Source: Candidatus Nitrospira neomarina
GTDB taxonomy: Bacteria > Nitrospirota > Nitrospiria > Nitrospirales > UBA8639
Assembly (NCBI RefSeq): GCF_032051675.1
Contig: NZ_CP116968.1
Span: 2,480,001-2,544,000, forward strand
Direction: 5' to 3'
Length of the DNA: 64,000 nucleotides
Shown: positions 6,976 to 19,811 of the stretch, piece after piece
How positions within the stretch are numbered: the stretch's first letter is position 1
Layout of the letters: each line of letters opens with the position of its first letter
Translations under genes and position numbers: made by a program
Notes under the pieces: generated by a model
Seen by the model: the letters and a program-made list of their open reading frames with translations, nothing else
Told to the model about the DNA's origin: nothing
Database searches by the model: none

Positions 6976-8313
6976 ATGAGTGATCTAATCGCCGCCAGGT
7001 CCCTAATGGCCATGTCGCTGGGGTTTCACATTATTTTTGCGGTTGTGGGCATGGCCATGCCTCTTCTGATGGTTGTGGCCGAATGGCGTTGGCTGAAAAC
7101 GGAGAAAGCCGTCTACCTGATCATTGCCAAACGCTGGGCCAAAGGCACGGCCATTTTTTTTGCCATTGGAGCCGTAACAGGCACCGTGTTGTCGTTCCAA
7201 TTGGGACTACTCTGGCCCCGGTTTATGGAATGGGCCGGTCCCATCATTGGACCGGCCTTCGCCATCGAAGGGTTTGCGTTTTTTACGGAAGCCATATTTC
7301 TCGGGATCTATCTCTATGGATGGCAAAAGGTGAGTCCGGGTGCACACCTCGCGGCAGGAGGCGTGGTGGCGCTGAGTGGAATCATGTCCGGGGTCGTCGT
7401 CGTCATGGCAAACGGGTGGATGAATACCCCAAGAGGATTTATGATGCATGGCGAAATTCCGGCCAACATCGATCCCGTTGCCGCCCTCTTCAATCCCTCG
7501 GGTTTATTGCAGGCCCCGCACATGATCCTTGCCGCGTTTGCGGCTACTGGTTTTGCGGTGGCCGGCATTCATGCGTTTCTGCTTCTCCGCCAACCCGGCA
7601 ATGCGTTTCATCAATCGGCTCTACAAATTGCCTTGGTCATCGGTGGAATCAGCGCCATTCTTCAACCGCTCAGCGGAGATTTCCTCGCCAAACGGGTGGC
7701 AGAATTCCAACCCCTAAAATTGGCGGCCTTTGAGGCCCAGGTCGAGACGCAACAGGGCGCGCCGTTTCGAATCGGCGGAGTTTGGGATTCAGAAAGAGAA
7801 ATGTTTGACTATGTGCTGGAAATCCCTTATGCCTTGAGTTTACTCGTCACATCGGATCCCAACGGTCAGGTGATAGGTCTCAAGGATTTCCCCAAGGAAA
7901 ACTGGCCCCCTATTGGAATTACCCGAACGGCGTTTCAACTCATGGTGTTCATCGGATTTTTAATGATGGGCCTGGCTCTCTGGGGCCTCTGGCTTATGTA
8001 CAAGAAGAACTCTTTCTATCAATGCCGGCGATTCCTCCAAGCGATGGTGTTGGCAACCCCATTAGGCTTTTTGGCGATCGAAGCCGGTTGGGTAGCAACG
8101 GAAGTGGGCCGGCAACCCTGGGTCATTGTGGGCTATCTGAAAACCGCAGACGCCGTCACACCCATGCCGGGATTGATCATTCCCCTGATGATTTTTGGCG
8201 CTTTGTATATTTTCCTGGCCTGTATCGTGATCTGGTTGATGTGGCGCCATGTCGCAGCCACTCCCGATCAGTTTGAGATGACTTCCCCGCGGGAGGAGGT
8301 GCAACCGGTCTAA
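6976..8313 (+). CDS. cioA: Cytochrome bd-like ubiquinol oxidase subunit I (CioA/CydA type)
   Basis: A 445-residue polytopic membrane protein. His18 matches the conserved N-terminal heme b595 ligand, Glu98 and Glu105 lie in AIEGFAFFTEAIF, and His182 (PHMIL) and Met323 (QLMVF) match the heme b558 ligands. WMNTPRG and GRQPW (379-383) are family signatures. The Q-loop between helices 6 and 7 is short, as in cyanide-insensitive oxidases, and the whole chain is shorter than E. coli CydA (about 520). The conserved Arg just before the b558 Met appears to be Gln here. The enzyme would oxidise quinol and reduce O2 with little proton pumping. AAGGAT precedes the ATG. Confidence 0.9.
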   Translation: MSDLIAARSLMAMSLGFHIIFAVVGMAMPLLMVVAEWRWLKTEKAVYLIIAKRWAKGTAIFFAIGAVTGTVLSFQLGLLWPRFMEWAGPIIGPAFAIEGFAFFTEAIFLGIYLYGWQKVSPGAHLAAGGVVALSGIMSGVVVVMANGWMNTPRGFMMHGEIPANIDPVAALFNPSGLLQAPHMILAAFAATGFAVAGIHAFLLLRQPGNAFHQSALQIALVIGGISAILQPLSGDFLAKRVAEFQPLKLAAFEAQVETQQGAPFRIGGVWDSEREMFDYVLEIPYALSLLVTSDPNGQVIGLKDFPKENWPPIGITRTAFQLMVFIGFLMMGLALWGLWLMYKKNSFYQCRRFLQAMVLATPLGFLAIEAGWVATEVGRQPWVIVGYLKTADAVTPMPGLIIPLMIFGALYIFLACIVIWLMWRHVAATPDQFEMTSPREEVQPV

Positions 8314-9335: not shown

Positions 9336-9762
9336 GAAGGCCTCTACGGGACACTGCCAAACATCCCCAGATGTGCACCCCAAGGTCATGCCCCATTCCG
9401 GGGGAACCAAACCCTATCCCTTGACCGTGTACTTTGATGGCGACTGTCCAATTTGTCGTCGTGAGATCGATCTCATGAAAATATTCAACCGGAAGAAACA
9501 TCTGGAATTCATCGATTTTGCGGCTTCCTCCTACCATCCGGCAGAACACAGATTGAGCCCCTGTGATTTGGGCCAGGTCATTCATGCCCGGTGGGCAGAT
9601 GGAACGCTCATTACCGGAGTGGAGGTGTTCAGGGAAATGTGGGAAGCCATCGGATTGCGCACGCTCGCACGATTGGCCCGGCGGCCCACGATCAACAAAC
9701 TTCTGGTTCGGGCGTATGACTGGTTTGCCAGAAACCGGTTACGCCTGACCGGCCGCGGCTGA
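9328..9762 (+). CDS. DCC-family thiol-disulfide oxidoreductase-like protein (DUF393)
   Basis: From the ATG at 9328 the protein has 144 residues. The family hallmark is VYFDGDCPICRRE, with DxxCxxC spacing (Cys40 and Cys43), followed by IDFAASSYHP. DCC proteins have a thioredoxin-like fold, and most have no known substrate. The ATG overlaps the end of cioB, so the protein is part of the oxidase transcript and may help assemble or protect it; this is an inference. A longer frame beginning at 9244 within cioB is less likely. Confidence 0.85.
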   Translation: MDKKASTGHCQTSPDVHPKVMPHSGGTKPYPLTVYFDGDCPICRREIDLMKIFNRKKHLEFIDFAASSYHPAEHRLSPCDLGQVIHARWADGTLITGVEVFREMWEAIGLRTLARLARRPTINKLLVRAYDWFARNRLRLTGRG

Positions 9763-9864
9763 CCGACTTCCTCGAACGGATTGCAACGGTATTCATGTGG
9801 TTGGCTCATGCAGAGATCGCCTGAGCCCTGTTTCATTTCTGACTCCGGGATGGTCGGACCAAGC

Positions 9865-11526
9865 ATGAATGTATTTTTCAGAATACTGAACTCCTTTGGA
9901 ACGGGGGAAAACGGGAGGAGCTGGATTCTCGTTTTAGAGGACCAACTTTCCGATGACATTGGCCCCTTGAGCCGGGAAGATCCTCAGGGCCTTGGTGCTG
10001 TGTTCATCGAGTCGCATTGGAAACTAAAAAGAAGGCCCTACCACAAACAAAAAATCGCCTTTCATCTTCTCAACCTGCGTCATTTCGCACTCGAACAGGC
10101 GAAGCGGGGTGTGGCCGTTCGCTACCAAACGACCCCCGAACCCTTGCGAGAAACGTTAAAACCCCTCATTCGGGAATTAGGCTCTTTGCGGGTCATGGAA
10201 CCCGCGGAACTGGAAGTCAGGCAGGATCTTGATCCGCTCGTCAAAAGGGGTTTGGTCACCTTTATTCCTCATGAAGGTTGGTTAACCTCCAGACATGACT
10301 TTGAGGAGGGCGCGGGGAAAGAGCCTCCCTGGCGCATGGATACCTTCTATCGGTTCGTTCGAAAACACACCGGCATCCTGATGGAAGGTCCCCGCCCGAT
10401 GGGCGGAAAATATAGTTTCGATACCGAAAATCGTAATCCCTGGAAAGGAAACCCGTGCCCTACTCAGGAATTCCGCTTTCCGCCCCATCCGATCAAGACC
10501 GAGGTCGTCACACTAGTTGAATCCAAATTTGCCGACCACCCCGGCACGCTTCACCCGGAATTCCTCCCGGGAACAAAACAAGATGCCCTCCGGCAATGGC
10601 GCTGGGCCAAAACACATTGTCTCCCACATTTCGGTCCCTATGAAGATGCCATGGCGGAAAAAGAACAGACGCTCTTTCATACCCGTATGGCCGCTCTCCT
10701 CAACATTCATCGTTTGCTGCCCTGGCGGGTTATTAAAGACGTCGAAGCCATAAAGCTCCCCTTGGCTTCCAAGGAAGGTTTTATCCGGCAGGTTCTAGGC
10801 TGGCGTGAATTTGTCCGGCATGTTCATCAAGCAACGGATGGGTTCAGGAATCACTTCCCCAAAGCAGACGTTCCCGGTCATGCCGGATACAACAAATGGG
10901 TTAGGCCAAAATGGAAGGCTTCCAGGCATGTCCCCGATCTGGATGGAGGGGCAGCTCCTTCATTCTTGGGAGCCATGAACCCTCTGCCCGCCGCCTTTTG
11001 GGGAACAGCGAGCGGCCTCCATTGTCTCGATCAAGTGATCGGTCAGGTCTGGGAACATGGCTATTCCCACCACATTACCAGGCTCATGATCCTTGCGAAT
11101 ATTGCCACTCTGCTCGATGTGTCTCCTCGTGAACTGACCGATTGGTTCTGGATGGCCTACGTTGATGCTTTTGATTGGGTCGTGGAACCGAATGTGCTGG
11201 CCATGGGAACCTTTGGAACGGGTCCTTTCATGACCACCAAACCCTATATTTCGGGAGCAGCCTATATCCATCGTATGAGTGATTTCTGCACCGGATGCGC
11301 CTTCAACCCCAAAACGAATTGCCCCATTACCAATTTATATTGGGCCTTTCTTGAGCGCCACAAAAAGCAATTGCAATCAAATCCCCGCCTCATGCTGCCA
11401 CTTCGAAACTTGCAGAAACGAGGACCGGCCACCATTCGTAAAGATCGTCAAATCTTCACCATGGTGCGGCGTGAACTTGAAAAATCCACAAGCCTAACTC
11501 CTGCGCATCTGCTCCTTTTCGAATGA
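9865..11526 (+). CDS. FeS-type cryptochrome/photolyase (photolyase-related protein)
   Basis: About 553 residues from the ATG at 9865 (an in-frame ATG lies at 9850 and the frame extends back to 9781). I chose 9865 because the family begins shortly before the LVLEDQL segment. The C-terminal half contains GWREFVRHVHQ, and candidate 4Fe-4S cysteines Cys387 (GLHC), Cys475, Cys478 (FCTGC) and Cys486 (TNC). The spacing of the first two agrees with the FeS bacterial cryptochrome/photolyase group (PhrB-like). Such enzymes use FAD and blue light to repair (6-4) photoproducts. It lies alone after the oxidase operon, 102 bases from the DCC gene. Confidence 0.88.
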   Translation: MNVFFRILNSFGTGENGRSWILVLEDQLSDDIGPLSREDPQGLGAVFIESHWKLKRRPYHKQKIAFHLLNLRHFALEQAKRGVAVRYQTTPEPLRETLKPLIRELGSLRVMEPAELEVRQDLDPLVKRGLVTFIPHEGWLTSRHDFEEGAGKEPPWRMDTFYRFVRKHTGILMEGPRPMGGKYSFDTENRNPWKGNPCPTQEFRFPPHPIKTEVVTLVESKFADHPGTLHPEFLPGTKQDALRQWRWAKTHCLPHFGPYEDAMAEKEQTLFHTRMAALLNIHRLLPWRVIKDVEAIKLPLASKEGFIRQVLGWREFVRHVHQATDGFRNHFPKADVPGHAGYNKWVRPKWKASRHVPDLDGGAAPSFLGAMNPLPAAFWGTASGLHCLDQVIGQVWEHGYSHHITRLMILANIATLLDVSPRELTDWFWMAYVDAFDWVVEPNVLAMGTFGTGPFMTTKPYISGAAYIHRMSDFCTGCAFNPKTNCPITNLYWAFLERHKKQLQSNPRLMLPLRNLQKRGPATIRKDRQIFTMVRRELEKSTSLTPAHLLLFE

Positions 11527-11958
11527 ATTTCACCATGCTCACATTATCCCGCTTTCTCGAAAAACCCTGACTGCCCCGCTCCCGATCCTCCCTGGTGTGT
11601 TCCTCAACAGCCTGGAAAAACTTCTTTGGACAGGCTCGCACACTTTCATTGAAATCCATGACGGCCAGGCTGAAGGCCCATCCAGGAATGAGCATCCAGG
11701 CTTTGGGCCGGGAGCCGAATGGACAGGCAATATTCGATAAGATCTGAAAAAACACTTATCCTACCCCCCAAGCCACTCTTCATTATCAAGAATTTACGAA
11801 CATTTTTCATCATCCATTTTTTTTATGATTATATGAATTTTTATGTATTTGTCTATACATGTAAAACTAGTATCTAATAATTGTTATATAGCGGAGGAAT
11901 ATATAAAGCCTTCACAACAAGGACGGTTGGCCGTCTACTTTACATGGAGGATTCGAAA
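11527..11958. other. AT-rich intergenic region upstream of the repeat-peptide gene
   Basis: The left half (11540-11740) has a coding-like texture on the minus strand (a frame reaching into the photolyase 3' end) but resembles no family. The right half is strongly AT-rich (11800-11890), as expected of a promoter. TTGTCT at 11849-11854 and the AT-rich hexamers near 11871-11890 are possible but weak promoter elements. A GGAGG sits at 11946-11950 and serves the next gene. Confidence 0.35.
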
Positions 11959-12312
11959 ATGAGCACTCGACTGACAACAACCAAAGCATTCAGTTTCACG
12001 TTTGCGTTAGCTCTTGCCGGACTGTTGGCTTGGCCTCAAATGGGCACAGGGTGGGGTAAGGAAGGCAGCGGGCAGCTGCCTTTATTCGACGGCAAATTCA
12101 CCTGGATCATGGCCACCGAGGCGGATAAGCAGGAGGAAGGGGTGGACTGGACACTGGCCGACAGAGTTAGCAGAGACATTAGCGGTGATGAAACTGACTG
12201 GACTCTGGCCCATGGTGAGTCCGATGCTGCGGACGAGGATGAGACCGATTGGACATTGGCCAGTAACGATAGCAGTGAAGAGGAAGAGGAGGTCGATTGG
12301 ACCCTCGCATAG
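11959..12312 (+). CDS. Secreted acidic DWTLA-repeat protein (unrecognised family)
   Basis: From the ATG at 11959 (preceded by GGAGG) the precursor has 117 residues. Residues 1-32 form a Sec-type signal (basic start, FTFALALAGLLAW core, small residues after it). The mature part is made of acidic spacers ending in a five-residue motif. DWTLA occurs at 63-67, 80-84, 97-101 and 113-117, the last being the exact C-terminus. A looser copy, TWIMA, lies at 48-52. Spacing is 15-17 residues, and spacers are rich in Asp, Glu and Ser. I know of no family with this pattern. It could be a multi-core modified peptide precursor, a metal-binding repeat protein or a surface peptide. A perfect hairpin follows the gene. 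Confidence 0.8.
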   Translation: MSTRLTTTKAFSFTFALALAGLLAWPQMGTGWGKEGSGQLPLFDGKFTWIMATEADKQEEGVDWTLADRVSRDISGDETDWTLAHGESDAADEDETDWTLASNDSSEEEEEVDWTLA

Positions 12313-12322
12313 GGCTTTGTTG

Positions 12323-12358
12323 GGTGGGAGGAAACTTCGGTGAAATGTTCCTCCCACC
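12323..12358 (+). terminator. Hairpin after the DWTLA-repeat gene
   Basis: A perfect 11-base-pair inverted repeat (GGTGGGAGGAA at 12323-12333 pairing with TTCCTCCCACC at 12348-12358) with a 14-base loop begins ten bases after the stop codon. The following ATTTCTTCCTCATT is pyrimidine-rich but not a clean U-run. It is probably a transcription terminator or mRNA 3'-stabilising hairpin, so the peptide gene would be its own transcript or be expressed above the downstream genes. Confidence 0.65.
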
Positions 12359-12460: not shown

Positions 12461-13294
12461 ATGCGTATCCATAACCCATCCGTGACCGGCCGGACATGTG
12501 ACGATTTAACAACGGCCGCTCAATCTTGCTGCTCGAGAATTTTTCCTCTTCTGACTTTAGCCCTTGCCTGGACGAGCGGATGTGCCGGCCCTTCTTCTCT
12601 CGGGCTGGAGACGCAATTTGAAAAAGAACTGAATTCTTCGTCGATTATCCAGGAAAAGCTTTCAATTCAATCTCAAGACCGGCTCCCGGCTGGGATGGTC
12701 ATCGTCATGTCCTCAGACCACTCCCGGACCACCCAGGCGCTGTCCGACAATAGCTGGTTACAGTTCGCGGCCCGGGTGAAGCAGGAGGTTCAAAACCAGA
12801 TTCCCCTCTCCGTGGAAGAGGTCATTCGTCTGGAGGACATCCCCTCCGGAAATAGAGTCAGCCTACTTGACGGACTGAGAGCCACCAGGGATCTTGAGGT
12901 GGCCTTGATACTCCTAACAGCCAACCAGGAAATCACGGGACCGGCCCAGCTTGATCTTCTCCCCGAAGTCAGTCGGCTCAACGGTCAGCAGACGGAAAAC
13001 CACGCGACGATCGAATTAGGTTTGTTAGACATCAAGTCGGGGAAATTACTTCTCCGTGCACTAGGCCGCTCTCATGCAACTTTGGAACAATTGGATGTTC
13101 CTCTGGCATCCAACCGGTATCCCAGAGTAAGAGGATCCGCCATGACCAGTCCGATTTATCCTGAAGAAGGAAAGGCTCTTGAGACTGTCAGAATGATCGC
13201 ATTACACGAGGCCCTTGATCAGGCAGTCATGAAATTGGCCCAACAGTGGACTGACGGAGTCGGTGCACCGACTCCTTCCAACCGGACTTCTTAA
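12461..13294 (+). CDS. Putative lipoprotein of unknown function
   Basis: The 277-residue protein has a long N-terminal region and a hydrophobic stretch (IFPLLTLALAWTSGC) ending at Cys41, a plausible though imperfect lipobox. The mature part has an alternating beta/alpha pattern (GMVIVMSSDH, DLEVALILLTA, ATIELGLLDIKSGKLLLRALGRSHA). The last of these resembles proteins in which a small-domain lipoprotein reports or binds a ligand. GAGGAGAT precedes the ATG. No family is recognised. It lies between the DWTLA gene and the small membrane protein on the same strand, so it may belong to the same system. Confidence 0.7.
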   Translation: MRIHNPSVTGRTCDDLTTAAQSCCSRIFPLLTLALAWTSGCAGPSSLGLETQFEKELNSSSIIQEKLSIQSQDRLPAGMVIVMSSDHSRTTQALSDNSWLQFAARVKQEVQNQIPLSVEEVIRLEDIPSGNRVSLLDGLRATRDLEVALILLTANQEITGPAQLDLLPEVSRLNGQQTENHATIELGLLDIKSGKLLLRALGRSHATLEQLDVPLASNRYPRVRGSAMTSPIYPEEGKALETVRMIALHEALDQAVMKLAQQWTDGVGAPTPSNRTS

Positions 13295-14022: not shown

Positions 14023-14937
14023 TCAGGCTGAACCGGAGCGTCGAAAAATGGTTTTTTCAGCTGAGTCGACAATGGCCAGCACACCAGGGTGTTTAAGGCG
14101 TCGCTCAGCCGAGATGGCATAGAATTGCTCTCGGATACCTGAAACGATTCCGATTTTTTGCACCGCATATTGCCGGGCAATCTCTTTGGCCATGACAGCC
14201 GATCCCGGGAAAATGCCTTGGCCGGCCCCTCCGAATGCCTTCATGGTGGCACTATCTTCAAATTCCCCGATCACTCTGGGAACGATTCCAATGCGTGCGA
14301 ACCACTCATCCATCCCACGACGAAGTATCGAATTACTCGTCGGCAGGAGAAATGGGGCTCCGGTTAACGATTTGGGAAACCCTTTTCGATATTTCGCCGC
14401 AATTTTTTTCATCGCAAATACGGCCACCTCTGATTCTCCCAGAAGGTGACTGTGCCCTTGGATTTTGACAGTGGCGGGAATGGGGGTATCCGCCAACACG
14501 AGATCCAACGCATGCAAGGCTAATTCTCCTAATAACCTGTCCAACCGTCCCTCCCAACAGACAATTTGCACAGGCTCGCGAAGGGCATATACCGATTCCA
14601 GCAGTTTATAGGCCACCATTTTGGGGACCACTTCGGCAATGCCTACCACTAATTTCAAAGGACGATGAGTCGGTCGACCTTTCAAAAGGTTGGTAAATTC
14701 CTGCCCCAGGGAAAAGATTTCCTCGGCATACCGGTAGGCCACCTGTCCCATTTCCGTCAAGACCAGGGTTCGTCCGACCCGATTAAACAATTTTTCTCCC
14801 AGGGACTCTTCCAACGCACGAAGCTGAGCACTCAACGCAGGTTGGGAGAGGTTCAGCTCTTCACAAGCACGCTTAATGCTGCCTTCACGCGCGATCACCC
14901 AGAAATACAGAAGATGATGGTAATTTAACCATTCCAT
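14023..14937 (-). CDS. LysR-family transcriptional regulator (NhaR type)
   Basis: From the ATG at 14937 (in-frame ATGs also at 14949 and 14973) the protein has about 304 residues, the usual LysR length. The N-terminus WLNYHHLLYFWVIAREGSI and LSQPALSAQLRALEESLG form the winged helix-turn-helix. The YHHLLYFW opening is characteristic of the NhaR subgroup, which answers to sodium or alkaline conditions in enterobacteria. A periplasmic-binding-like effector domain follows (LKLVVGIAEVVPKMVA, LLGELALHALDLVLAD). It is transcribed away from the HlyD-TolC-ABC operon and shares a 260-base region with it, so it very likely regulates that operon. The ligand is unknown. Confidence 0.9.
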   Translation of the reverse strand: MEWLNYHHLLYFWVIAREGSIKRACEELNLSQPALSAQLRALEESLGEKLFNRVGRTLVLTEMGQVAYRYAEEIFSLGQEFTNLLKGRPTHRPLKLVVGIAEVVPKMVAYKLLESVYALREPVQIVCWEGRLDRLLGELALHALDLVLADTPIPATVKIQGHSHLLGESEVAVFAMKKIAAKYRKGFPKSLTGAPFLLPTSNSILRRGMDEWFARIGIVPRVIGEFEDSATMKAFGGAGQGIFPGSAVMAKEIARQYAVQKIGIVSGIREQFYAISAERRLKHPGVLAIVDSAEKTIFRRSGSA

Positions 14938-15119
14938 GTACGGAAGCATACATTCAGTTTTTAAATGATTCAAGAAGAAAATATGAATTTGTTTATGTCA
15001 ACAACCAATGTTGATGAGGGGATATTGAAGAGTATGCCGGGACTTGGCTTTGCGATCAGAAGACCCTAATATGACATATCCGATTAAGATATCGATGAAC
15101 TACATTCCGGTATATGATC

Positions 15120-15199: not shown

Positions 15200-16627
15200 A
15201 TGGCTCTTGAGCGTTTACCCACAAAATCATCCGGCCCTCAACTCGTTTCTCGCCAGGATCTTTCTTCGCTACGCGTCACTGGTCGTCCTCCACAGTATGA
15301 ATCATGGGCGGCGGTGAAAATTCCGACGAAATTGTACACCGCGACCCGTCTCGCCACCGGTTGTTTTCTTCTGTTCACTCTTATTCTTGTCTTCGTTCCA
15401 TGGACCCAAACGATAACCGCTCAGGGCCAACTATCGGCCTATTCCCCTGCCGAACGACCGCAGGAAGTTCATGCTCCCATAGAAGGGCGCATCATGACCT
15501 GGAAAATCAACGAAGGGGTTATGGTACAAACAGGTGATCTCCTGCTTGAACTTGCCGATGTCGATCCCAAATTTCTTGCTCCCGATCTGTTGTCACGCCT
15601 GGACCAATCCAGGGTGGCTCTAGAGGAGAGACGGGAAGCGGCGTTATCCCGGGCCCAGTTATTGGAGCAACAAATCGAGGAAATGAAAAAGCTGAGCGAC
15701 GCGGCGACTCGCTCGGCCGATTCCCGGGTGCAGGAAGCCTCCCGGCGGATTCAAAGTGTCGAACAACGGTTGGCGGCCGCAAAAATATCAGTCCAGACGG
15801 CTCAACTGAACTTACAGCGCTCGCAGGTGTTAGAAGCCGAAGGCCTCCTCTCCCGGCGGGATCTGGAGCTGGCCATTCAAGCGGAAGCGGCCGCTCAAGC
15901 CGAACTCAGAGCCAGTGAAGCGGCTCTTCAGGAAGTGGGCCAATCACGACAGGCCCTGTCGTATGGGCGGACTCAAATTGAAGCAGAGCTGGTTCAACGA
16001 ATTCTTGACACCCGCTCACAACGGGCCTCGGCGCTGGCGGAAGCCGCCAATGCCTCGAAGGAATTGGCCGACCTGGCTTTGACGCAGTCCAATGCTGTGC
16101 AGCGACGGGCAGCCAGCCGTATTACCGCCCCCATGGATGGGACAGTGGTGCGAATGGCCCGGGTGGGACCTGGTGAAATCGTACATCCCGGCGATCCGTT
16201 GGTCACGATCGTTCCAACCACCGCCACTCGTGCCGTGGAGATGTGGGCGGACGCCCTGGATGCCCCACTGCTCAAACAGGATCGAAACGTGCTTCTGATG
16301 TTTCAGGGCATACCAGCCATTCCCTTACCATCCTGGCCTGAATTGATGGCGGGCACGTTCGATGGCCGCATTCGTGTCGTGGATCAGACATCGGACGCAC
16401 AAGGTCGCTTCCGGTTCTGGGTGGTTCCAGATCCGGCAGGCTCACCTTGGCCGCCGCAAAATCAAGTCCGGCAAGGCACCCAAGTGATGGGTTGGGTCCT
16501 GTTGAACCGCGTACCTCTCTGGTATGAACTTTGGCGCCGCGTGAACCTTTTCCCGGCTGACTACCAGGAACATGGCATAGCTTTGCCACAGTCCATTCTT
16601 CCCAAGGCCGGAAGACCCGGAAAATAA
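15200..16627 (+). CDS. HlyD-type periplasmic adaptor (membrane fusion protein)
   Basis: The 475-residue protein has a short cytoplasmic N-terminus, one transmembrane helix (GCFLLFTLILVFVPW, about residues 51-70), a lipoyl-like half motif (VHAPIEGRIMTWKINEGVMV), and a long alpha-hairpin with coiled-coil character (about 130-300). A second lipoyl half and beta-barrel follow (RITAPMDGTVVRMARVGPGE). This is the standard layout of adaptors that join an inner-membrane transporter to a TolC channel. It is the first gene of a three-gene operon with TolC and an ABC protein, as in type I secretion systems. The ribosome site is weak. Confidence 0.92.
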   Translation: MALERLPTKSSGPQLVSRQDLSSLRVTGRPPQYESWAAVKIPTKLYTATRLATGCFLLFTLILVFVPWTQTITAQGQLSAYSPAERPQEVHAPIEGRIMTWKINEGVMVQTGDLLLELADVDPKFLAPDLLSRLDQSRVALEERREAALSRAQLLEQQIEEMKKLSDAATRSADSRVQEASRRIQSVEQRLAAAKISVQTAQLNLQRSQVLEAEGLLSRRDLELAIQAEAAAQAELRASEAALQEVGQSRQALSYGRTQIEAELVQRILDTRSQRASALAEAANASKELADLALTQSNAVQRRAASRITAPMDGTVVRMARVGPGEIVHPGDPLVTIVPTTATRAVEMWADALDAPLLKQDRNVLLMFQGIPAIPLPSWPELMAGTFDGRIRVVDQTSDAQGRFRFWVVPDPAGSPWPPQNQVRQGTQVMGWVLLNRVPLWYELWRRVNLFPADYQEHGIALPQSILPKAGRPGK

Positions 16628-16685
16628 CTTCTACTTGGTAGATCCCAAACCATTCACTCTCGGCCATCACAAGGGAGGACCACCC

Positions 16686-18128
16686 ATGGCAAGACCACTT
16701 GTAATCCTGTTAGGCCTCTTGGGGATTTTAGAACTGCTTGCGCCCCTTCTCCGGGCTGCTCCGGGACCGGACGTCACGCCTACGCCAAACCAGCAATCCC
16801 GATCGCTACATCTGGAAACCGTGCTCACACTCGTGGAAACCCAACATCCTCTTTTGCATGGAAGCCGGACGGAAAAACTGGAAGCGCAAGGCAAATTATT
16901 AAAAGCCATGGGAGCATTTGAACCGACCTTGGTCAATGATTGGGAATTGGAACGGCTCGTGAAAGACGGGCAGACCAAGAGTGTGGGGTTTAACGACACG
17001 CTGATCCAGGCCCGCCATCCCTGGGGAATTCAAGGGTTTGCAGGCTGGCGCACCGGTATCGGAGACGTAGAGGTGGCCGACCTTGGAGTTCAACGCACGA
17101 ATCAACCTCTCCTCGGTATCGTTTTGCCTCTCCTTCGGGGCTTGGGAACCAACCCCGAACGGGGCGAATTGGAAAAATCCAAACTCGCCGAACAGGAAGC
17201 GACCCTGAACATTCAACAAACACGTCAGGACCTGTATTTGGGTGCGGCGACGCAATTTTGGAAATGGGTCGGGTCAGGGAAGATTGTGGTACTGCAGCAG
17301 GAAGCCTTGGACGTGGCCAAGGCCCGTCTGCAGCAACTCACCCGTCAGGCTGCGGCAGGGGCTGTCGCAGAATTTGACGTCACTGAAGCCCACCAGGAAG
17401 TCCAACGTCGATTGGAAAACCTCATTAAGTCCAAACGGGAAGCCGAACAGGAACAGTTCAAACTGTCCCTGTTTACCTGGAACAATAATGCCCTTCTCTC
17501 CTTCGACCGGTATTCGATCCCTGAATTCCCGGCGTTCAATGCGTCAAGCCAGCAGGCAGGAGGAGATCCCGAAACCGAGCTGGCCCAACAGCGCCGACCC
17601 GAAATTCTTCAAGTGTCCCTTGAAGCCGCACGTAACAACATTGATCTTGGCGTGGCCAAAAACAACTTGCTCCCTGATCTTCGTGCGGAAGCCGAACCCA
17701 CACGCAAACCCGGAGAGTTTGTGCTGGGGCTGGGGTACCGATTTGGCGTGCAATTGAGTTTTCCATTTCTTCAACAGGACGCCACCGGCCAAAAGCTTCA
17801 ATTAGAGGCCAAGGCTGAACGATTAGTGTGGCTACAACGGTATCGGGTACAGCAGGTGGCCCTGGATATCGAAAACGCCCGCTCGGCCCTGGACCGGGCG
17901 AAAGAGCGCATAGAGGCGGCATCTCAATCCCTCGCCTATGCCCGTTCCCTGGTGAAGGGTGAACGAAAGCGCTTTCAAATGGGTGCCACGAATCTACTGT
18001 TTGTCAATCTCCGGGAGCGCAATGTGATCGAAGCCCAAATCATTCACATTCAGGCACAGGCCGAATATCAACAAGCCAAAGCTTTTTATTCATGGGCTAT
18101 CGGCGAATGGACGCAACCTGTAACCTGA
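16686..18128 (+). CDS. TolC-family outer membrane efflux protein
   Basis: The start at 16686 is supported by GGGAGGA a few bases upstream; the frame could extend to 16635 but then lacks a clean signal peptide. The 480-residue precursor begins with a signal peptide (MARPLVILLGLLGILELL). The rest is two TolC-type repeats rich in long helices, for example LYLGAATQFWKWVGSGKIVV, AKARLQQLTRQAAAGAVAEF and, in the second repeat, SLAYARSLVKGERKRFQMGA. It forms the trimeric outer-membrane duct of the HlyD-containing export complex. It ends 18 bases before the ABC gene. Confidence 0.9.
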   Translation: MARPLVILLGLLGILELLAPLLRAAPGPDVTPTPNQQSRSLHLETVLTLVETQHPLLHGSRTEKLEAQGKLLKAMGAFEPTLVNDWELERLVKDGQTKSVGFNDTLIQARHPWGIQGFAGWRTGIGDVEVADLGVQRTNQPLLGIVLPLLRGLGTNPERGELEKSKLAEQEATLNIQQTRQDLYLGAATQFWKWVGSGKIVVLQQEALDVAKARLQQLTRQAAAGAVAEFDVTEAHQEVQRRLENLIKSKREAEQEQFKLSLFTWNNNALLSFDRYSIPEFPAFNASSQQAGGDPETELAQQRRPEILQVSLEAARNNIDLGVAKNNLLPDLRAEAEPTRKPGEFVLGLGYRFGVQLSFPFLQQDATGQKLQLEAKAERLVWLQRYRVQQVALDIENARSALDRAKERIEAASQSLAYARSLVKGERKRFQMGATNLLFVNLRERNVIEAQIIHIQAQAEYQQAKAFYSWAIGEWTQPVT

Positions 18129-18146: not shown

Positions 18147-19811
18147 ATGCACAATGGCTCTCCCCATTCCGAACGATCCTTGAATCAGGAAGTGCTTCAA
18201 CATGTGGCGACCTTTTTCAGACAGGAACGCCAAATCCTGCTCACGATCATCATGTATGCCTTGGCCGTGGGCCTCTTTTCCTTGATTGTTCCTGTCACCG
18301 TACAGGAACTGGTGAATACCTTCGCTTTCGCCATTCAACCAATCATGGTGGTCACCTTGGTCAGTATCATGGCCGGTATTCTTTTATTTGTCGGGATTTT
18401 CAAAGCCCTTCAATTTTTCGCCACGGATCTTCTTGAACGCCGTATCTTTGTCCGGTTCACTCTGGCCTTTGCGCGAACCTTGCCATCGATTCAGGAAACT
18501 CAATTTCGGAGTGAATACGCCAGCCGGTTTTTTGAAATTATCTTTATGCAGCGAGCCGTCGCCGCGTTATTGGTGGATCTGACCAATGTGGCAGTCGGAG
18601 GAGTCATCGGCATGACCTTGCTCGCCTTGTATCACCCGTATTTTCTTTTCTTTGATCTTCTCCTCTTGCTCGCGGTGGGCTTCATTGCCATATTGGGGCA
18701 CGGAGGACTCCAGGCTACCCTACACATGTCCGAGGCAAAATATGACACCTACCATTGGTTTCAGGAGATTGCCGACAACCTCAGCCATTTTAAATCCAGC
18801 CTGAGCCGCGACCTTATACTGCAAAAAGCCGATTCCCTGGCCCATACGTACGTCAATACCCGACAAGCGCGTTTTCGCATTCTTGTTCGACAATACATCG
18901 GATCCCTGCTCCTTCAGGTGATTCTGCACACCGGCCTGTTGGGCACGGCAGGCTGGTTGATGAGCCAGGGGCAACTGACGCTCGGTCAACTCGTCGCTGC
19001 GGAAGTCATTATTGCCACCCTCCTGTTAAATCTGGAATCGGTGATCAAACGCACGTATGTCATCTTTTATTTTTTAACGGCCTTGACCGAAATTCATCAT
19101 ATTTTTTCTCTCCCCAAGGATCAAAGACCGACAACTCAATTTGTCCAGCTTCCGGCCACTGGCTCACCACAAGGATTGGCACTTTCCATCTCCCATGTAC
19201 GGGGCCTGCCCCCCCCATGGCCACCTACGCTGGAACTTAACATGGACCTTGCCCCGAGTGAAAAATGGGCCATCGTCTGTGTCACGGAATCCCAACGGCT
19301 GACAGTGTCCAGGCTGCTGGCCGGATTGGATCATCCACCGCAAGGATCCATCCGGTACAATGGCATCGATGTCCGGGATCTCCACCCCGATGACGTCAAT
19401 GAAACCCGCGGCCTCGTCTTGAGTCGACATATGACCCTCTTTGAGGCCACCCTGATGGAAAATATCACCCTGAGACGAAAAAATCTGGCCACAGAAGATT
19501 TGTTGTGGGTTTTGGATTTGGTGGGCTTACAGGAGGAAATCGAACACATTCCTGACGGATTACAAGGTATGGTTCAGTACGGCGGAAAAAACTTTTCTCC
19601 AAGTCAAACGATTCAAATTTTATTGGCCCGTGCCCTGATCGCCCGTCCGAAATTGGTCATTATCGATGGGGGTCTTCATGAAATTTTTGCTTCCCGGAGG
19701 GAGTCAATTCTGAACGCGATTTGCGACACGAAATGTCCTTGGACCATTGTTATCGTTACTACCGATTCCAATATTAAAAAATTTGTGCAGCACAGTATTG
19801 TATTGGAATAA
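18147..19811 (+). CDS. ABC exporter-like protein with a catalytically degenerate nucleotide-binding domain
   Basis: A 554-residue half-transporter. Residues 30-320 form an ABC type-1 transmembrane domain with about six helices; no N-terminal C39 peptidase is present. Residues 345-554 align in layout with an ABC ATPase, but every motif is altered. The Walker A position reads CVTESQRLT (378-386) with no GxxGxGK[ST]. The Q-loop position reads LSRHMTLFEAT without Gln. The signature reads FSPSQ instead of LSGGQ. Walker B reads LVIIDGGLHEI with Gly in place of the catalytic Glu, and the H-loop reads VTTDS with no His. The frame is intact, so this looks like a maintained pseudo-ATPase. AAGGA precedes the ATG. 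It ends the operon. Confidence 0.9.
   Translation: MHNGSPHSERSLNQEVLQHVATFFRQERQILLTIIMYALAVGLFSLIVPVTVQELVNTFAFAIQPIMVVTLVSIMAGILLFVGIFKALQFFATDLLERRIFVRFTLAFARTLPSIQETQFRSEYASRFFEIIFMQRAVAALLVDLTNVAVGGVIGMTLLALYHPYFLFFDLLLLLAVGFIAILGHGGLQATLHMSEAKYDTYHWFQEIADNLSHFKSSLSRDLILQKADSLAHTYVNTRQARFRILVRQYIGSLLLQVILHTGLLGTAGWLMSQGQLTLGQLVAAEVIIATLLLNLESVIKRTYVIFYFLTALTEIHHIFSLPKDQRPTTQFVQLPATGSPQGLALSISHVRGLPPPWPPTLELNMDLAPSEKWAIVCVTESQRLTVSRLLAGLDHPPQGSIRYNGIDVRDLHPDDVNETRGLVLSRHMTLFEATLMENITLRRKNLATEDLLWVLDLVGLQEEIEHIPDGLQGMVQYGGKNFSPSQTIQILLARALIARPKLVIIDGGLHEIFASRRESILNAICDTKCPWTIVIVTTDSNIKKFVQHSIVLE

Follow-up and report, generated by a model that had tools for sequence, protein, structure and literature searches.

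A family of small exported-type DWTLA-repeat proteins in the Nitrospirota, with a shared upstream element and linkage to envelope-type genes

The DWTLA-repeat protein of Candidatus Nitrospira neomarina belongs to a real gene family, previously undescribed in the models, structures and literature that we searched. We analysed a 64,000-nucleotide stretch of this genome (contig NZ_CP116968.1, positions 2,480,001 to 2,544,000; referred to here as the window) containing a gene whose product carries regularly spaced copies of the pentapeptide DWTLA. The genes of this family share the repeat pattern, are under purifying selection, and are linked to similar sets of neighbouring genes and to a common DNA element upstream. 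In kind, the product is a small exported-type tandem-motif protein, and only its putative function would make it categorically new. The reading that we tentatively prefer, at somewhat below an even chance, is that the protein is exported by Sec, is disordered, and offers multiple docking sites as part of an envelope regulon under an NhaR-like regulator; the adjoining lipoprotein is the first candidate partner. The features of the locus are shown in Table 1.

Table 1. Features of the DWTLA locus, in window coordinates.
Feature	Position	Strand	Basis or remark
Composite element ATGATT-N11-TATGTATTTGTCTAT, ~100 nt 5' of the DWTLA start codon	11825..11856	+	Genome scan, conservation
GGAGG ribosome-binding site	11946..11950	+	Sequence; 8 nt 5' of ATG
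DWTLA-repeat protein, 117 aa	11959..12312	+	ATG at 11959, TAG ends 12312
11-bp perfect hairpin, terminator-like, 3' of the DWTLA stop	12323..12358	+	Sequence
Putative lipoprotein, 277 aa, CsgG/PelC-type fold, constant neighbour of the DWTLA gene	12461..13294	+	Fold model, orthologue survey
Exported-type protein, 135 aa	13473..13880	+	No Pfam/NCBIfam match
LysR-family regulator, NhaR type	14023..14973	-	Pfam HTH_1, LysR_substrate; NCBIfam NF008284
Second element copy TATGAATTTGTTTAT, LysR/HlyD intergenic	14982..14996	+	Genome scan
HlyD-family periplasmic adaptor	15200..16627	+	Pfam PF13437; TIGR01843 below its cut-off
TolC-family outer-membrane protein	16635..18128	+	Pfam PF02321, two stretches
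ABC-exporter-like protein lacking Walker A, the signature motif, the catalytic Glu and any peptidase domain	18147..19811	+	Alignment, Pfam, NCBIfam

The DWTLA gene and its product

The five units of the window protein are at residues 48 (TWIMA) and 63, 80, 97 and 113 (four exact DWTLA copies), with spacings of 15, 17, 17 and 16, and the alanine of the last copy is the final residue of the protein. An earlier note on this DNA had described the repeats, their spacing of 15–17, the C-terminal last copy, the gene's own GGAGG and the hairpin, all of which are confirmed in the sequence. The repetition is not a product of chance, because in 100,000 shuffles of the protein any pentapeptide occurred three times in 3 and four times in none. 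The four DWTLA copies are encoded by differing codons (GACTGGACACTGGCC, GACTGGACTCTGGCC, GATTGGACATTGGCC and GATTGGACCCTCGCA), and the protein motif has therefore been retained while the DNA drifted.

The arms of the hairpin are GGTGGGAGGAA (12323–12333) and TTCCTCCCACC (12348–12358). It is terminator-like and no textbook terminator, since it has no strong U-tract and is absent from the list of the terminator scan. A GC-rich hairpin likewise follows the DWTLA copies of G004, G019 (both copies), G014 and G009, and ribosome-binding sites of the AGGAGG type precede the genes of the relatives.

The N-terminus is hydrophobic (residues 10–24, mean Kyte-Doolittle 2.05) and is a possible membrane anchor; together with the regular units it agrees with the earlier description of an exported-type repeat protein. 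The tail (residues 39–117) is acidic, with 25 D/E against 4 K/R. AlphaFold2, with seven sequences as input, predicts a helix at residues 7–23 only (mean pLDDT 52.8, pTM 0.17), with no fold for the acidic tail and no beta structure. The absence of a fold is as expected of a flexible chain, although so few input sequences make the prediction a weak argument for disorder.

Distribution of the family

The search for relatives covered 49 genomes of the family and a draw of 396 from the phylum; other phyla were covered by one contig pattern scan. There are seven readable copies in six genomes, representing two genera of one Nitrospirota family, a group of nitrite-oxidising-type bacteria. The readable relatives of the window gene are in the MAG G004 (L020, recorded as 'Nitrospiria bacterium'), G019 (two copies), G009, G005, and G028, which is of another genus within the same family as the source genome. 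The second G019 gene (L021, 9206–9496, minus strand) immediately follows the gene of an ECF sigma factor (9679–10509, minus strand); it lies outside the usual locus, and has no adjoining lipoprotein gene or shared element. Decayed copies are present in two or three further genomes. The frame is broken in G014, the G018 copy is broken by a stop and an internal deletion, and G011 has a decayed DWTL fragment directly before hlyD. This G011 fragment, a short frame with DWTR...QDWTLVKNGGG (L090, 5077–5247, minus strand) between the LysR gene and hlyD, is a probable DWTLA remnant.

No further members were found in the 49 family and 396 phylum genomes at the thresholds used, one weak match aside, and the matches among the 396 are confined to the same family. 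The weak match (G020, E 0.02) was rejected as antisense to another gene. Six candidates that lie inside other genes (L003, L009, L012 and L014–L016) were also rejected, as were L002, L011 and L019, which resemble the DWTLA protein at the N-terminus only (GLVAWPSSA...GTGKKAGSV). This last type of frame occurs at three places in three genomes; it has no relation to the DWTLA family and may be a dispersed repeat. No relative was found among viral contigs, plasmids and phages. Searches of Pfam, NCBIfam, PHROGs and PDB sequences gave no match, a literature search for DWTLA returned no paper describing such a family, and the literature on Nitrospira secretion and bacteriocins held nothing on the locus; the earlier statement that no described family has this pattern holds in all of these sources. 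The frame is conserved in relatives, with a dN/dS of ~0.35 overall against G004, the closest relative, which upholds the coding call made from the single sequence.

Conservation of the units

Repeat number varies among homologues, a point that the earlier note had raised: there are 3–6 units across the family, with the core kept and spacings always of 14–17. In 31 units aligned in register over eight sequences, W is present in 31/31, D in 28/31, L in 27/31 and A in 26/31, with an E/D-rich triad immediately before, giving the nine-residue consensus E-[ED]-E-[VTA]-D-W-T-L-A. Degenerate units read DWPLA, DWTTA, DWALA, DWNLA, DWTHV, DWILV or HWTLA, and the residue after the motif is variable (S, K, N, D, G, Q, H and others). 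The protein ends exactly with a unit in five of the seven readable members, one residue later in another, and 60 residues later in G005. In the comparison with G004, the spacers have diverged further than the motifs at the amino-acid level (dN 0.123 versus 0.062). A search of five genomes for the class [DE][VED]DWTLA returned only the DWTLA genes themselves, and the tag is therefore not known from any protein that carries it once.

Two explanations had been offered for the regular spacing: processing into repeated short units, and repeated binding sites. Multi-core precursors, including graspetides such as plesiocin, yeast alpha-factor and bacterial Phr peptides, have tandem short cores, acidic spacers, and a core at or near the C-terminus. 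By analogy, the DWTLA protein could be exported by Sec and then cut into short peptides each ending in DWTLA, as with yeast alpha-factor or Phr; its acidic spacers and W-containing cores are in tandem, the last core is at or nearly at the C-terminus in six of the seven readable members, and an exporter-like operon and a regulator are close by. However, it differs from these precursors in several respects. Pfam and NCBIfam searches and inspection of the neighbourhood revealed no conserved gene for a maturase or peptidase, ATP-grasp enzymes included, at the locus, no residue after the motif is constant as a cleavage site, many cores are degenerate, the G005 protein runs on far past its last unit, and the ABC-like protein has neither ATPase motifs nor a peptidase domain. 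We consider a peptide precursor unlikely, and the proposal of processing is not supported here. Repeated binding sites for a putative partner would fit better.

Gene order, the upstream element and the NhaR-like regulator

The gene order in the window is bd-type oxidase genes, a photolyase-related gene, the DWTLA, lipoprotein and 135-aa protein genes, a divergent LysR gene, and then HlyD, TolC, ABC-like and thioredoxin genes. Nearly the whole of this order is kept in G019 and G028, and the gene types around DWTLA are DPRP photolyase-like, lipoprotein, LysR, HlyD, TolC, ABC, thioredoxin and glutathione-peroxidase. The co-occurrence with HlyD, TolC and degenerate ABC genes proposed from the sequence is thus seen as linkage in several genomes. 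The 135-aa protein has relatives in L027 (3613–4011, minus strand; 7685–8173, plus strand) and L091 (4986–5417, minus strand), and two distant members of its family in other genomes have the same upstream element.

The core of this element, TATGTATTTGTYTAT, occurs at no more than one mismatch at two sites in the 4.8-Mb genome, both of them in promoter gaps of the DWTLA locus, 3.1 kb apart and on the same strand. The count of two is not above the reversed-pattern control at the same mismatch limit, which gave four (2 + 2), and the case for the element therefore rests on position and conservation. The 19 genomes searched contain eleven exact copies of the core (one in the window and ten in 18 others), spread over three genera; each copy precedes a gene for DWTLA, the lipoprotein or the 135-aa family, or adjoins LysR/HlyD. 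At the site in the LysR/HlyD gap, G028 has an exact copy at the same place and G004 a copy with one mismatch. Fifteen aligned sites show the longer composite ATGATT-N11-TATGTATTTGTYTAT, which is also upstream of the DWTLA gene in other genomes.

The LysR protein passes the NCBIfam NhaR model NF008284 with 231 bits against a cut-off of 219. We infer from these sequences that it may bind the element and regulate through it, and the DWTLA gene appears to be co-induced with the envelope-complex genes. In E. coli, NhaR responds to sodium and pH (PMC6307784) and is linked to biofilm adhesin genes (PMC6307784, PMC5596200); it has also been noted in several Nitrospira, where the E. coli precedent served to connect it with responses to salt and pH and with biofilm responses (PMC5596200). 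The locus resembles the E. coli NhaR regulon in that an NhaR-type LysR protein is encoded divergently beside a shared element, whereas the apparent targets here are the DWTLA protein and the envelope complex, as compared with nhaA, osmC and pga in E. coli.

The sodium and pH response of E. coli NhaR, together with the excess of acidic residues in the tail, would suit a non-specific acidic filler that acts through net charge alone, either as a cation buffer of the periplasm or in osmotic stress. We regard this as quite improbable, since DWTLA is the most conserved part of the protein, and charge alone leaves the near-constant W, L and A unexplained.

The adjoining lipoprotein

Wherever the locus has a DWTLA gene or its remnant (8/8 genomes), a close orthologue of the lipoprotein (>50% identity) is present. 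Both genes are broken in G014, where HlyD, TolC and ABC are open; in G018 the lipoprotein gene is still open. G032 has a broken homologue of 42% identity with the upstream element, and no DWTLA gene was seen there. Homologues of any degree, including distant ones, are found in 43/49 family genomes, mostly without DWTLA. A tandem pair of distant homologues is present elsewhere in the source genome (L094, 7617–9081), and similar ones are present in most genomes of the family.

The structure model of the lipoprotein (pLDDT 72, pTM 0.69) has CsgG as its best match (Foldseek E 2.5e-7; VIA Z 10.6 over 146 residues, 4.8 A), followed by PelC (Z 9.7) and then FlgT, HpaA and LptE. The matches to FlgT, HpaA, LptE and LpoB are tied or near, and were set aside as reflecting the common fold only. 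The modelled matches thus indicate a CsgG/PelC-type fold and not a function, this fold being common to many lipoproteins of other function. The lipoprotein has no match to Pfam CsgG, which in the source genome matches only another open frame, at 796924.

CsgG and PelC are lipoproteins of outer-membrane export assemblies, and in curli, whose repeats are Gln/Asn-rich, CsgA passes through the lipoprotein CsgG. A small Sec-type repeat protein beside a lipoprotein with CsgG and PelC as its best fold matches could likewise be a secreted matrix or fibre subunit, crossing the outer membrane via this lipoprotein in a curli-like division of labour. The link of E. coli NhaR to biofilm adhesins cited above is in keeping with this, as is an exopolysaccharide-type gene cluster recognised by inspection downstream, at 22.5–63 kb of the window. 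The DWTLA protein differs from curlins, however, in its acidic units, in the absence of predicted beta structure and of any Pfam match, curlin repeats included, and in the lack of further csg-type genes in the conserved neighbourhood; the lipoprotein, for its part, is without a Pfam CsgG match, and its homologues are mostly found in genomes without DWTLA. We judge a matrix subunit to be improbable.

The HlyD-TolC-ABC operon

In the window ABC-like protein, CVTESQRLTV, FSPSQ and VIIDGG replace the Walker A, signature and Walker B motifs. Fourteen orthologues from several genera (L071–L084) have comparable losses, with all ATPase motifs gone in 15/15 sequences; the signature position reads FSPSQ or FTPSQ, the Walker B glutamate is missing, and the remaining domain aligns well. 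No peptidase domain was matched in Pfam. This pseudo-ABC is maintained together with HlyD and TolC across several genera. ABC is present in 20/49 family genomes, and the operon is also found in genomes without DWTLA; therefore, it does not need the DWTLA protein.

Loci related to type I secretion with a second SecA have been reported also in Nitrospirae (PMC4452313). The DWTLA locus is like type I loci, these included, in having HlyD, TolC-family and ABC-exporter-like genes together, and differs in its ABC without ATPase motifs, in the lack of a SecA gene in the conserved neighbourhood, and in having no RTX substrate. Linkage in several genomes and the common upstream element would be expected if the DWTLA protein were a type I substrate of the neighbouring operon. 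ATP-driven export by this ABC is nonetheless unlikely because its ATPase motifs (Walker A, signature, catalytic Glu) are gone, and the presence of the operon in DWTLA-less genomes points the same way. The DWTLA protein, moreover, has its own hydrophobic N-terminus and no RTX repeats by Pfam, and we think it very unlikely to be such a substrate.

A docking protein in an envelope regulon

In the docking reading that we tentatively prefer, the DWTLA protein would be exported by Sec as an intrinsically disordered, strongly acidic envelope protein. Its nine-residue units would be multivalent docking sites linked by flexible spacers of 5–8 residues, the NhaR-like LysR protein would control its gene together with the complex of HlyD, TolC and the ATPase-dead ABC, and the adjoining lipoprotein would be the most likely direct partner. 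The variable repeat number with a kept core, the co-occurrence with the lipoprotein, the positions of the element, the joint breakage in G014 and the fragment before hlyD in G011 are consistent with docking. The lone second copy of G019, the intact lipoprotein beside a broken DWTLA gene in G018, the operon without DWTLA and the widespread CsgG-like fold argue against it. A bolder proposal, which we consider distinctly unlikely, is that EEEVDWTLA is a new envelope code, either a docking or export signal for a ring of CsgG/PelC-like lipoproteins or a source of released peptides, with salt-type regulation and coupling to the ATPase-dead ABC.

Nitrospira are key nitrifiers, and the building and regulation of their envelope are little known. 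The locus described here is a candidate for a compact regulon, with one regulator, a DNA element, a repeat protein, a CsgG/PelC-like lipoprotein, and HlyD-TolC joined by an ATPase-dead ABC. As a signal for docking or processing, DWTLA would amount to a short peptide tag of no recognised type; if it is not a signal, the family still shows cleanly how repeat number can change around a fixed core.
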